This document shows, in pieces, positions 6,827 to 40,547 of a stretch of DNA of 42,729 nt; position 1 is the stretch's first letter, and every line of letters starts with the position of its first letter. The notes under the pieces are model-generated. The model was not told where the DNA came from. It saw nothing but the letters and a program-made list of their open reading frames with translations, and did not search any database. The position numbers were made by a program, and so were the translations under genes. Source of the DNA: Candidatus Gastranaerophilales bacterium (GTDB lineage Bacteria > Cyanobacteriota > Vampirovibrionia > Gastranaerophilales > Gastranaerophilaceae); the NCBI GenBank assembly GCA_944325945.1, contig CALVBW010000021.1, positions 1 to 42,729 on the forward strand. Reading direction: 5' to 3'.

Positions 6827-7954
6827 TCAAAAGATACTGAAAGACCCTCTTGTATCACCATAGGCATCATATTGTGTAATGTTGTTACCAAAGATACTGA
6901 AAGATCCTGTCGTATCACCATAGGCATCATATTGTGTAATGTTGTTACCAAAGATACTGAAAGATCCTGTTGAGTTACCATAGGCATCATATTGAGTAAT
7001 ATTGTCTCCAAAGATGCTGAAAGACCCTGTTGTGTCGCCATGTGAATCATATTGTGTAATGTCGTCTCCAAAGATGCTGAAAGACCCTGTTGTGTCGCCA
7101 TGTGCATCATATTGTGTAATGTTGTCTCCAAAGATGCTGAAAGATCCTGTTGTGTCACCATGGGCATTATATATGGTTATACGTGATGAATCATTAATTT
7201 TATCCGTCCACTCGTAGTTGTCTGCTTTTGGAGATCGAGCAACAGCAACTAAAATTGGAATAATAGTATTTGACTGAGAATTTTTGACGGTGACTTTAGG
7301 CAGTTGTTTAGTTTCTTGTTTGTTTTTTTTTCGGGAATAATATTCATCCCAGGTAAAAACATTGTAAAAATCAATAACCTGGTCTTCGCTGTCAAATTCA
7401 AAGATATGCTCTCTGTCAATGAGCACGAAACTGCCGAGTTTATTACCGCTCAAATCATAGTGTGTAACAACGCCGTCGTCAGAAATTTTGTAAAAGGAAA
7501 TGATATCGCCGTCAGCTTCAAAATTAAAAATGTCCAGAATACTCCGATACCAGCCGGTATCAGGTCTATCGTATTTGTAAATTGTATTACCGGAGACTTT
7601 GTATCTAAATATAGGATTCTTGTCTTTGGCATCAGATCCCGGATATTGATAAATATATTCGTCATATCCCCAATTACGCAAAGACCAAAAATCATGAGAT
7701 GCCGTTACATCCATTTTTGTTACACCATCTTTGTGATGTGTAACAAGTCCTGCAATTTCTTTTTTAGCCGGCGAGAGTTGTCTTATAGCGATAATCTCGT
7801 CCTGTTTAAAAGCCTTTGCCCATTTTGGTGCATTATACATTCCTGTATTAACCATAATAGAAATAACGCCGAGGATAGTATCTTCATCGGTAGCCGGAGT
7901 ATTAGGCGCAAGCATAAAAAATACAACAAGTAAAACAAATAGTTTTTTTAGCAT
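6827..7954 (-). CDS. Secreted protein with six tandem 20-residue repeats
   Basis: This 375-residue protein has a signal peptide (MLKKLFVLLVVFFMLAPNTPA), a non-repetitive region to about residue 258, then five full and one partial copies of a 20-residue unit (consensus ITQYDAYGDTTGSFSIFGNN) to the stop. The upstream half contains related short strands (YKVSGNTIYKYD, THYDLSGNKLGSF), so the unit may have arisen from within the protein and expanded. It reads against the tail operon, between tube copy 2 and the fibre gene. No family is recognised. It resembles RHS/WG-type beta repeats in character only. It could be a lysogenic-conversion gene, or a host gene captured in the locus. Confidence 0.8.
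   Translation of the reverse strand: MLKKLFVLLVVFFMLAPNTPATDEDTILGVISIMVNTGMYNAPKWAKAFKQDEIIAIRQLSPAKKEIAGLVTHHKDGVTKMDVTASHDFWSLRNWGYDEYIYQYPGSDAKDKNPIFRYKVSGNTIYKYDRPDTGWYRSILDIFNFEADGDIISFYKISDDGVVTHYDLSGNKLGSFVLIDREHIFEFDSEDQVIDFYNVFTWDEYYSRKKNKQETKQLPKVTVKNSQSNTIIPILVAVARSPKADNYEWTDKINDSSRITIYNAHGDTTGSFSIFGDNITQYDAHGDTTGSFSIFGDDITQYDSHGDTTGSFSIFGDNITQYDAYGNSTGSFSIFGNNITQYDAYGDTTGSFSIFGNNITQYDAYGDTRGSFSIF
6830..7180 (-). repeat. 60-bp tandem repeats, six units
   Basis: Units of exactly 60 bp encode the 20-residue repeats of the antisense secreted protein. Units nearest its C-terminus carry Tyr and Asn variants (DAYG, GNN), those nearer the N-terminus His and Asp (DAHG, GDN), so neighbours are most alike. 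This is the pattern expected from local duplication. The last unit is cut short by the stop codon at 6827-6829. Confidence 0.9.
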
Positions 7955-9786: not shown

Positions 9787-10385
9787 TGTATTACGTAGAA
9801 AAAGAAAACGAAATAGTATTGTATGACACAGATAAAACCAGATTGGAACAAACAATAAACTTTATGCCGCAGTATGCGGGCTTGGAAATAAAAGAAACAG
9901 ACCGCCCGATAGTGGAATTTGAGTTTGCGGACACGGAAGAATACGCACAGGCAGAGGCTCAGAGGGAACGTCAAAGGCTGAATCTTTTGAATTTAACAAA
10001 GGCGGATGTACTTCTGGCATTGTATGAAGATAAAGGCTTAACGCCTGACGACATAAAAGAAATGCTGAAAGATAACGTGCCTGCGTTAATCAAATTCGAC
10101 TATGCAAGCTCATATTATCGCGGCGATGAGGTGGTAAATACTCTCGGGCTTGCTTTAGGCTATACGACAGAGGAAATGGACTATCTGTTTGAGAATAAAA
10201 CATTCCCGCAGGATGTGTCTTCCGATACGGATGATGACAGTGATACAGATAATGATTCAGACAGTGACGCGGATACTGACACGGACAGTGACACTGATAA
10301 TGATAGCGACACAGATAGTGACAACGACACCGACACTGATTTGGACAGCGACACAGATAATGAAGAAAGCGAGGTAACAGAATGA
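9786..10385 (+). CDS. Tail-fibre-associated protein with Asp/Ser/Thr-rich tail
   Basis: This 199-residue protein has an ATG overlapping the fibre stop by one base (TAATG), so the two are translationally coupled. The first part (MYYVEKENEIVLYDTDKTRL) is an alpha/beta domain. A charged helix (residues 55-72) and an LGLALGYTTEEMDYLF helix follow. From about residue 143 to the end the protein is almost only Asp, Ser, Thr and Asn (for example TDSDTDNDSDTDSDNDTD), probably disordered and strongly acidic. Position suggests a fibre assembly or attachment role. No known family is recognised for the tail. Confidence 0.6.
   Translation: MYYVEKENEIVLYDTDKTRLEQTINFMPQYAGLEIKETDRPIVEFEFADTEEYAQAEAQRERQRLNLLNLTKADVLLALYEDKGLTPDDIKEMLKDNVPALIKFDYASSYYRGDEVVNTLGLALGYTTEEMDYLFENKTFPQDVSSDTDDDSDTDNDSDSDADTDTDSDTDNDSDTDSDNDTDTDLDSDTDNEESEVTE
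10215..10365 (+). repeat. Low-complexity GAY-rich coding repeat
   Basis: About 50 codons alternate GAT/GAC with AGT/AGC, ACA/ACT and AAT. The repetition produces long shadow ORFs in other frames and is likely prone to length change by slippage. Confidence 0.75.
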
Positions 10386-12466: not shown

Positions 12467-12572
12467 ATTCAACACTCCTTTCAAATTTCCTTACTCTCTA
12501 CACTTACGTTATAACTCTGTTTTTGCGAAAACCGTTTGTTTTTAACCAAAAATTAACAATTAATGTAAAAAG

Positions 12573-12707
12573 TGAATAAGTAAATAAGTGAATAAGGGAA
12601 TAAGGGAATAAGGGAATAAGTGTTATATAAAAAGCAATCTTGATAAAATTCCGCACAGATTAATCCATGATACAACTTATTCCCTTATTTACTTATTCCC
12701 CTATTCC
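12573..12707 (+). repeat. Dispersed element, family A, copy 1
   Basis: Six 8-bp units (TGAATAAG, TAAATAAG, TGAATAAG and three GGAATAAG; 12573-12620) form a left arm. A 55-bp core follows (12621-12675). A right arm has the inverse units (CTTATTCC, CTTATTTA, CTTATTCC, CCTATTCC; 12676-12707). The arms can pair into a long hairpin. The core matches the inverted copy at 40469-40523 in 49 of 55 positions and its right 25 bp match 15207-15231 in 24 of 25. It lies between hsp20 and the methyltransferase gene. Confidence 0.85.
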
Positions 12708-15067: not shown

Positions 15068-15206
15068 TATTTACCTTCCGATACCTCTAAAATTCCTGAA
15101 TAATTTTTTTATTCTTATTATCTCATAAATTGTTTAAATTTTTACATAAGTTTACAGATGCAGGCTATGTTAAAGATTTTGGACAGATCTGCGGATTGAA
15201 ATCATC

Positions 15207-15263
15207 CCGCACAGATTAATCTATGATACAACTTATTCCCCTATTCCCTTATTTACTTATTTC
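15207..15263 (+). repeat. Dispersed element, family A, copy 2 (truncated)
   Basis: Only the right part remains: 25 bp of core (15207-15231) and four 8-bp units of the right arm (CTTATTCC, CCTATTCC, CTTATTTA, CTTATTTC). The left arm and left core are missing. It lies in the 290-base gap upstream of nifJ, ending 16 bases before the nifJ -35 box. Confidence 0.8.
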
Positions 15264-32976: not shown

Positions 32977-33312
32977 TTACTAAGATACTAGGGCAGTAAG
33001 ATACTAAGAAGATTTTAGAGTGAGTGAAGTGAGTGGCGCGTGAGGCTTTATGTCATCCTGAACTGCCAAAGGCAGGACAACACACTGAACATTGGTGGGA
33101 TTAACCATGTCATCCTGAACTTGTTTCAGGATCTCAAGAACAAAGGGAAGCCCCTCTCCCGTCACTGCGTGCCACCCTCTCACCTTCACTACGTTCCGGA
33201 AACAGGGTCGCACAACTCGTACCTCGTTGGCTCCCTTTGTTCCCTAAGGGGCGAGGGAAATGTAGGTCGGCTTATCCGACAGTAAATTTTTAGTATCTTA
33301 GTGCCTTAGTAT
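32977..33312. repeat. Dispersed element, family B, with 8-bp-unit inverted arms
   Basis: Left arm: TTACTAAG, ATACTAGG, GCAGTAAG, ATACTAAG (32977-33008). Right arm: the inverse TTTAGTAT, CTTAGTGC, CTTAGTAT (33289-33312). The arms pair closely. The 280-bp interior has no supported gene. It carries GTCATCCTGAAC twice (33052 and 33109), the second as the palindrome ATCCTGAAC...TCAGGAT, and several GC-rich palindromic pieces such as CCCTAAGGGG and GGTCGGCTTATCCGAC. The element fills the whole gap between the terminator at 32973 and the stop codon of the DUF4013-like gene. Confidence 0.75.
33109..33135. repeat. Palindromic GTCATCCTGAAC-type repeat
   Basis: The sequence starting GTCATCCTGAACTTGTTTCA and ending GGATCTC is a well-known kind of short palindrome scattered in many bacterial genomes, recalled from memory. 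Here it is nested in the family B element, with a partial second copy at 33052-33063. Confidence 0.6.
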
Positions 33313-33317
33313 CTTCT

Positions 33318-34061
33318 TTATAACTTTTCTTTATAAATCTGTACATAGCAGTAGCTTGCAATATATTGCATTATAGTCGTCAAATAAGCTCCGAGTGCCA
33401 TGCAAATGTATGATACAACATCATTTCCTCGTCCGAGAACATTTACGATGGCAACAACTATGAATACCGGTATTAATTTTACCAAAAGCCATAAAACACT
33501 TAGAATTGTCTTTTTGAAATATTGGAAAATTATCCCTAAATTATATAATCCGTCGCGTTTGTATTCTTTGGAAAATTCCGTGAAAACAAACGGCAGCATA
33601 ATACATATGATTAAACCGGTTATTCCGAATAATGCCATAACAATTCCGGAGGCAAGTTTAGGCGCAATCACAAATGACAGAGCTATTTTTAAAATCAATG
33701 CCGCAAAAAACAGCAGGAATATATACAAAACCCACACAATCTGCACCGGCAGACCTTTGAAAAATATTAAGAACCAGCTTTTGTCAAATTCCGGCAAAAT
33801 TCCTTCTTTCATTTCGTCAAAAGAATTATGGATTATTCCGTACAAATATCCGCCGAGGTAGATTGAAATTACACCCATTACAATTAATGCCAGAAGTGAC
33901 ATAACAATATCGGTTGTCGAAAGCGCAACCCTTTTGCTGATTTCGTTAAGCGGTGTTGAAAGCATTACCGGCACCCCTGTTAATACAAAAAGCATTATGT
34001 GTTTTACAAGGATATCTTCTCCTGTGTATAATTTTTTGATTGCGTCTTTTATTCCTGACAT
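33318..34061 (-). CDS. DUF4013-like integral membrane protein
   Basis: This 247-residue protein has about six to seven membrane segments. It starts MSGIKDAIKKLYTGEDILVK at the ATG at 34061, after AAAAGGAGC. The layout is a short cytosolic N-terminus, a G-Y-L-Y-G-I-I-H-N segment between helices, and an L-P-E-F-D-K-S-W motif before the third or fourth helix. This layout fits the DUF4013 family of bacterial and archaeal membrane proteins of unknown role. Its stop lies six bases from the end of the family B repeat, which therefore forms its 3' UTR. Confidence 0.65.
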   Translation of the reverse strand: MSGIKDAIKKLYTGEDILVKHIMLFVLTGVPVMLSTPLNEISKRVALSTTDIVMSLLALIVMGVISIYLGGYLYGIIHNSFDEMKEGILPEFDKSWFLIFFKGLPVQIVWVLYIFLLFFAALILKIALSFVIAPKLASGIVMALFGITGLIICIMLPFVFTEFSKEYKRDGLYNLGIIFQYFKKTILSVLWLLVKLIPVFIVVAIVNVLGRGNDVVSYICMALGAYLTTIMQYIASYCYVQIYKEKL

Positions 34062-39149: not shown

Positions 39150-40451
39150 ATGATGAGATTTTTGATACACACAATGGGCTGCAAATCCAATCAATTTGAG
39201 GGCGCGGTCATTGAAGAAAATTTAATAAAAAACGGATTTGAAAAAGTCAAAAAGCTTGATGAGGCGGATATTTATATCCTGAATTCCTGCTCGGTAACAC
39301 ACAAAAGCGATAATGAAGCCCTTTATCTTCTGCGAAACGCAAAACACAAAAATCCAAATATCATAACTGTTTTGACCGGATGCCTCGCGCAAATCGAAAA
39401 AGAAAAATTGCTTGAATATGATTTTATAGATTTTGTTGTCGGTAACGATGAAAAGTTGGATTTGGAAAATTTCTTAAATTCAAGAGAAAGATTGCAGGCA
39501 GCTGACATTATGCAGCTTGAAAAATTCCATGAAGTTCGGCTTGAAGATATGACCAAAACCCGCGCAAGCCTTAAAATTCAAGACGGCTGTGATAACAGAT
39601 GTTCTTATTGCATTATCCCTTTTGCCCGCGGCAACAGCCGTTCTGCAGACATTGATTTTGTAATCGACGGGATAAATAATTTTGTCCGGCACGGGTTTAA
39701 AGAGGTTGTGTTTACGGGAATTCATATAGGTTTGTGGGGAAAAGAACTGGGATTGACGCTTTTGGATTTGTTAAAAGAGGTTGAAAGCAGGACGGATTTG
39801 GTCAGGTACAGACTCGGGTCTTTGAATCCGCTGGAAATTACGGACGATTTGTTGGAATTTCTTGCTAAATCGGATAAATTCTGCCCGCATTTTCATCTTT
39901 CGCTTCAATCAGCCTGCAACAAAACTCTTGAGAGTATGAACAGGTTTTATAAGGTTGAGGATTATTTAAAACAGATTGATAAAATTAACAATATGTTTGA
40001 TCTGCCGTTTTTGGGAAGCGACATAATAACGGGTTTTGCGGGTGAAACTGATGAGGATTTTGAAATTACCCGCAAAAATCTTGAAAAGTCAGGGCTTTCT
40101 CAAATTCATACCTTTCCTTATTCAATCCGTAAAGGCACTAAAGGCGCCGCCATGCCTGCTCAGGTTGAAGAAAAGGTCAAAGAAGCCCGTGCCTCTGTTG
40201 TAAAAGCGATTTCCGCGCGTAAATATAATGAATTTATTCGAAAAAATCTCGGCACGGTTCGTGAAGTTTTAATCGAAAAACATCCCGACAAGTCAAACGG
40301 CATGCTCAAAGGTGTTACGCGGAATTATCTGACAGTCTACATAAATTCAAGCGACTTGTCGCTTTTGAATACCCTTTGTCAGGTGCGTTTGACCGAATAC
40401 AAAGACGGCAAGGTATATGGGGAAGTGAATAATAAGGGAATAAGTAAATAA
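39150..40451 (+). CDS. mtaB: tRNA t6A37 methylthiotransferase
   Basis: This 433-residue radical-SAM enzyme adds a methylthio group to t6A at position 37 of tRNAs reading ANN codons. The N-terminal UPF0004 domain has C11 (TMGCKSNQFE), C47 (NSCSVTHKSD) and C78 (GCLAQ) for the auxiliary cluster. The radical-SAM Cys are C147, C151 and C154 (DGCDNRCSYCIIPFARG). A C-terminal TRAM-like region follows. The G-C-K-S-N-Q start and the T-H-K-S-D motif point to MtaB rather than MiaB or RimO. The last eight residues and the stop codon come from the dispersed repeat at 40426. Confidence 0.92.
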   Translation: MMRFLIHTMGCKSNQFEGAVIEENLIKNGFEKVKKLDEADIYILNSCSVTHKSDNEALYLLRNAKHKNPNIITVLTGCLAQIEKEKLLEYDFIDFVVGNDEKLDLENFLNSRERLQAADIMQLEKFHEVRLEDMTKTRASLKIQDGCDNRCSYCIIPFARGNSRSADIDFVIDGINNFVRHGFKEVVFTGIHIGLWGKELGLTLLDLLKEVESRTDLVRYRLGSLNPLEITDDLLEFLAKSDKFCPHFHLSLQSACNKTLESMNRFYKVEDYLKQIDKINNMFDLPFLGSDIITGFAGETDEDFEITRKNLEKSGLSQIHTFPYSIRKGTKGAAMPAQVEEKVKEARASVVKAISARKYNEFIRKNLGTVREVLIEKHPDKSNGMLKGVTRNYLTVYINSSDLSLLNTLCQVRLTEYKDGKVYGEVNNKGISK

Positions 40452-40547
40452 GGGAATAGGGGAATAAGTTGTTTCATAAATTAATCTGAGCGGAAATTTT
40501 TCAAGATTGCTTTTTATATAACACTTATTACCTTATTTACTTATTCG
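40426..40547 (-). repeat. Dispersed element, family A, copy 3 (inverted)
   Basis: This is the same architecture as copy 1, read from the other strand. A 55-bp core (40469-40523) is 49/55 identical to that of copy 1. Arms are of 8-bp units: GGAATAAG, TAAATAAG, GGAATAGG, GGAATAAG on the left and CTTATTAC, CTTATTTA, CTTATTCG on the right. It lies between convergent mtaB and the Bax-inhibitor-like gene and overlaps the last codons of mtaB, so it may end both transcripts. Confidence 0.85.

Follow-up and report, generated by a model that had tools for sequence, protein, structure and literature searches.

The octamer-armed element in the window

The window, a stretch of 42,729 bp from a Gastranaerophilales bacterium, is an entire contig (C21) of a 1.63-Mb genome assembled in 32 contigs. 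At positions 32977-33320 it carries an element bounded by two convergent arrays of four octamers with the word NNACTAAG, called B here. The left arm (32977-33008, plus strand) consists of the units TTACTAAG ATACTAGG GCAGTAAG ATACTAAG, and the right arm (33289-33320, minus strand), read on its own strand, of (TAAAGAAG) ATACTAAG GCACTAAG ATACTAAA, the bracketed outermost unit being degenerate. A sequence-only reading of this locus had described the octamer arms, and the array scan finds them real and in 8-bp phase; its coordinates hold at every boundary except the end of the right arm, where 33312 misses the degenerate unit and 33320 is the true end. The core (33009-33288) is 280 bp long, contains no gene and is pieced together, as a mosaic, from other dispersed repeats, GTCATCCTGAACTTGTTTCAGGATCTC among them; its pieces recur separately elsewhere when the genome is searched with them. 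The element lies between convergent protein genes, directly 3' of a hairpin that resembles a terminator and ends in a T run, and outside any 23S rRNA gene; Rfam models detected two tRNAs only, and no rRNA, in the window.

Elements of a second family, A, are bounded in the same manner by arrays of the octamer NNAATAAG. One has a left arm of seven units, mostly NNAATAAG (12565-12622, plus strand), a core module (12623-12675) running from TGTTATATAAAAAGCAATCTTG to CAGATTAATCCATGATACAA, and a right arm at 12676-12707 (minus strand). Another has its arms at 40429-40470 (plus) and 40522-40547 (minus), and a truncated copy at 15206-15263 (minus) retains the right half of the core and the right arm only, as judged from the array scan and from relatives. 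In an alignment of 13 A pairs, a module of about 55 bp is conserved in most copies. The NNAATAAG and NNACTAAG arrays bear out the earlier claim that both families follow one 8-bp grammar, and the cores differ as had been proposed, with a mostly conserved module in A and a 280-bp mosaic in B. Two further repeats of the window overlap predicted open-reading frames: a 60-bp tandem repeat in 5.7 copies (6830-7172) and a GACACAGATAATGACAAC-type repeat (10236-10363).

Octamer arrays across the genome

With up to one mismatch allowed, 23 two-octamer patterns were found in the window against 1.4 expected, a number reached in none of 100 shuffles. The inverted arrays had been expected to recur genome-wide with their 8-bp period, and both the period and the further arrays were found: three-octamer patterns number 236 in the genome, compared with 22 for a reversed control, and the pure ACTAAG pattern occurs 147 times, compared with none in the control. 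When adjacent arrays within 600 bp were paired in stretches sampled around the elements, 32 pairs were convergent (+-), ten were "--", one was "++" and none was divergent (-+). The elements fall into three groups, namely A with NNAATAAG arms, B with NNACTAAG arms in intergenic positions, and C with NNACTAAG-type arms within prepilin genes. On contig C31, B-type arms of one orientation are repeated every ~90-100 bp at 69059-69488, 80233-80470 and 94989-95126 (L084, L085 and L086), an arrangement resembling tandem duplications of half elements.

S23 genes between the arms

PF05635 comprises the four-helix-bundle S23 or 23S rRNA intervening-sequence proteins (IVP), known mainly from insertions within ribosomal RNA. 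The genome contains two PF05635 genes only, and each is exactly enclosed by octamer arms: one by A arms (C18:78380-78830) and the other by B arms (C24:22538-22974). The enclosed frames encode proteins of 117 aa (P0001, A-armed) and 123 aa (P0002, B-armed), both matching PF05635/TIGR02436, and a solved homologue is available from Xanthomonas campestris (XCC0516, 2gsc). The complete elements that share these arms carry S23 and not a known transposase. No catalytic activity is known for S23 proteins. A phage collection yielded no relative of P0002.

This architecture extends through the order. In Gastranaerophilales PF05635 loci the gene is closely bracketed by inverted arrays of a tandem 7-9-bp unit, the word varying by element (GTGACTAA, GGGAATAA, GTGAACA, TTTGATAAG and others). 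The inverted-arm score exceeded that of all control ORFs, a small set of 20 from the same loci that never scored above 25, in 30 of the 31 scorable Gastranaerophilales loci, and also in 18 of 21 loci from IMG/VR, six of ten from plasmids and seven of 12 from other Cyanobacteriota; a minority of the S23 loci beyond the order are thus without arms by this score. Outside Gastranaerophilales the period is mostly 7, with GGGAGTA, GGGAACA and GGGTGTA in Nostocales and GGACAGA-like words in Azospirillum. We observed an S23 gene between cas10 and cmr3 and another between cas6 and cas4; S23/IVP genes have been reported within cas loci (PMC3936711), which fits insertion into operons.

In several species, S23 elements with different arm words occupy the same junction, either before the start of a GroEL-like gene (MAKKIVFEEEARKSLLKG) or before a gene beginning MIKIGTALFEACE (L183-L185 and L343; L181, L187-L189, L191, L195, L196, L201, L203, L204, L209 and L210), and such junctions are possible insertion hot spots. 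PF05635 matches 18 times in one cyanobacterial genome (G225:C1; L324-L326, L328, L330-L334), where many copies have an extra TAACTGACGTTACGCACTTATTG upstream and near-identical sequence downstream of the gene, as if the S23 gene rides within a bigger repeated element. For this reason these copies were dropped as a guide to the exact ends.

Arm words are related to the proteins that they enclose. Among 20 dereplicated Gastranaerophilales loci, arm k-mer similarity rises with protein identity (Spearman 0.46; none of 5000 Mantel permutations as high), a correlation that supports recognition of the arms by the protein, although co-inheritance by itself could yield the same. Within the genus, a B-type S23 gene occurs in two genomes, which also have the most B arms (147 and 144), and all eight genomes devoid of B arms lack the gene. 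Two genomes, both incomplete (G152 and G148), have B arms and lack the B-type gene. The distribution of A is mixed: the A arm matches 205 times in one genome (G153) that lacks a PF05635 gene.

Presence, absence and core turnover at orthologous sites

The presence of the elements is erratic among close relatives. G057 has the complete B element of C24 at the corresponding site, whereas G154 has AAAAGTTACTAAGATATATAAT only, which matches the expectation for deletion at GATA microhomology. Three genomes (G033, G113 and G149) have one octamer-like sequence there, and in other relatives the site is simply a spacer of about 20-40 bp. The site of the B element in the window is filled in the related G154, G057 and G148, and the element is absent in more distant genomes. 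Flanks of the relatives compared here are about 94% identical, and G154 and G057 have kept the arms around cores of different length and content. In G148 an A element lies within the left B arm. At the site corresponding to 15206-15263 of the window, one relative (L106), whose neighbouring protein is 99% identical, has a two-armed A element with its core reversed, and five others (L101-L105) have no element. No target-site duplication was found at unfilled orthologous sites, where the boundaries are ambiguous. Seven loci that lack the B element of the window (L248-L253 and L255) have in its place a small gene for a protein starting MKTIIGVKLENR or similar; this gene is absent at the window site.

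Elements within prepilin genes

At least 16 B-armed elements (group C) lie within type IV prepilin genes, just upstream of the FTLAE motif (FTLAEVLITLGIIG). The paired cores, 81-453 bp long, are multiples of 3 in all 16, and 15 of the 16 elements leave the pilin frame open, the other two frames averaging nine stops each; core lengths in A and B are mixed modulo 3 or too few for judgement. Variant units in the group C arms (ACTATG, CAGTAAG) appear to remove stop codons, which fits selection for an open frame. Most copies show no clear start codon for the pilin frame, and we infer from the frame constraint that the elements are translated. Copies in prepilin leaders were found almost only where the frame remains open. 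The orthologues of one pilin could not be traced across the genus, the gene bodies having diverged.

A run of exactly nine G residues (CGGGGGGGGGCGAC) stands shortly 3' of the ATG in all eight prepilin genes with such a run, for example at C7:4019 (L038), C7:13018 (L066), C14:33991 (L033) and C8:47808 (L069) in this genome. The ATG is out of the pilin frame in seven of the eight, all of which could be brought back into frame by a tenth G or by a -1 slip, and in frame at C8:47808; phase variation or programmed slippage is possible. In other species, six prepilin genes (L262, L266, L268, L270, L272 and L275) have long repeat-filled leaders, open for about 70-113 aa, and some leaders contain different repeats where the octamer arms would be. 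Prepilin leaders thus appear to be a place where repeats accumulate in frame, and this could alter the leaders of many pilus proteins.

Comparison with known repeats and insertions

Short tandemly repeated repetitive sequences (STRR) of cyanobacteria are similar in form to the tandem arrays described here. Both they and the heptamers of Xanthomonas and Nostoc share with these arrays tandem short words and a preference for four units, and the TAACTGA repeats of Beggiatoaceae are similar. In Xanthomonas, GGGAATC arrays favour four units, and each genome has about 70 convergent pairs of them; the GGGAATC and GGGGA(C/T)T heptamers of Xanthomonas and Nostoc were described as quadruplex-forming and generally not associated with mobile elements (PMC4692102), and that work linked no S23 gene to them. 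In being short, non-coding, multi-copy and bounded by terminal inverted repeats, the elements have the traits of MITEs, and the MITEs that they resemble most are the Rickettsia palindromic elements, some of which are inserted in frame in protein genes (PMC10969869), in their lack of genes, inverted ends and partly in-frame positions. They differ from MITEs in that their ends are tandem octamer arrays and that the complete relative carries S23 and no known transposase.

The closest likeness is to the intervening sequences (IVS) of 23S rRNA genes in Leptospira and Coxiella, which share the protein family, the short unit and stem-forming inverted ends. The Coxiella IVS has an S23 ORF with tandem heptamers (GACAGAT) just upstream and a 28-bp terminal stem, and is excised by RNase III (PMC4990558); being of the same build, it counts in favour of an S23-element origin for the B element. 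However, the elements described here stand outside rRNA, between protein genes or within prepilin genes, and with many gene-less copies in a single genome. Because the element of the window is not within a 23S rRNA gene, it is IVS-like and not a strict IVS.

Origin of the elements

The B element of the window is probably a gene-less, non-autonomous derivative of an S23 element that resembles the IVS but stands free, belonging to a selfish family that consists of arms and an S23 gene. In its complete form such an element would have inverted arms, each of about four tandem 7-9-bp words, around one S23/IVP gene, and since S23/IVP is the protein of 23S rRNA intervening sequences, the family would be a free-standing relative of the IVS. 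The architecture, the presence or absence of elements at orthologous sites, the turnover of cores within kept arms and the co-variation of arms and protein are direct observations, and the elements are apparently mobile. The long RNA stems predicted for the arms also speak for this origin. Against it count the lack of any known catalysis by S23, the A arms of G153 and the B arms of G152 and G148 in genomes that have no matching S23 gene, and the armless minority of S23 loci beyond the order. An S23 oligomer may recognise its own arm word, either in DNA or in the stem of the arm RNA, and this recognition would mark complete and gene-less copies alike for spread, the cutting and joining being left to a host or other factor. 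No reverse transcriptase was detected in this genome, which makes an enzyme of that kind an unlikely candidate for the factor. Copies that are transcribed would stand in operons as RNase III-type hairpins, and recombination between arms could then shuffle the cores.

The sequence-only reading was correct in seeing one arm grammar around interchangeable cores, and cores do turn over at a single site in relatives. Its further suggestion, a single recombination or replication system acting on the arms, gains a candidate factor in the enclosed S23 gene, but since the S23 gene within A arms is not the one within B arms, these look like two sister systems, and homologous recombination between dispersed repeats could also swap cores. 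Taken further, this last process gives an unlikely alternative, the likeliest of three, in which the arms are ordinary dispersed repeats, spread and core exchange are due to host homologous recombination and gene conversion, and S23 is a captured passenger. Core turnover within kept arms at one site is expected from repeat recombination, and the deletion at GATA microhomology in G154 and the abundance of A arms in G153, which has no S23 gene, also agree with it. However, inverted tandem arms with unrelated words enclose S23 genes not only in Gastranaerophilales but also in other cyanobacteria, in plasmid records of other phyla and on viral contigs, and such repeated association with new arm words is not expected of a passenger; moreover, the new sites in relatives require insertion, for which exchange is insufficient.

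An RNA route is improbable. It supposes that the arm stem is processed and that S23 passes the RNA on to a reverse transcriptase in the manner of diversity-generating retroelements, whose Avd protein is distantly homologous to S23 proteins (PMC10053308). In its favour, P0001 and P0002 have weak similarity to Avd models, IVS excision happens on RNA (PMC4990558), and the arms of both the window element and the C24 element pair in the predicted RNA fold, forming long stems (z -5.6 and -7.3). However, a PF00078 search, in which diversity-generating retroelements would be expected to show their reverse transcriptase, gave no match in this 97.7%-complete genome (G000), and the route was disfavoured on that ground. 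Two weak PF05635 matches below the cut-off in G033, near reverse-transcriptase matches, are armless and probably true Avd genes. The least probable alternative, that the arms are binding sites or RNA stems by means of which S23 regulates the transcripts of its own gene or of its neighbours, and are immobile today, would suit the strong stems, the positions near gene ends and the arm-protein co-variation, but not the erratic presence among close relatives, the position of the window element after a terminator-like hairpin between convergent genes, or the pilin copies within reading frames.

What is new here is the enclosure of PF05635 genes by such arms, S23/IVS elements themselves being already known; we found no open-access paper joining S23 genes to tandem heptamers or octamers, to STRR or to Gastranaerophilales pilins. 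Compared with the origin proposed for the B element, a broader generalization is more tentative, and we hold it at a little under an even chance: S23/IVP elements may be a general class of bacterial mobile DNA, spreading with the aid of an arm-binding four-helix-bundle protein and with no transposase of their own, and the tandem heptamers and octamers of cyanobacteria, Xanthomonas, Coxiella and Gastranaerophilales may be their ends or gene-less derivatives. The association offers a testable partner protein for several families of repeats that have long lacked an explained origin. With it, the S23/IVP proteins would cease to be an oddity of rRNA and would come to stand for a probable class of selfish elements found across the genome.
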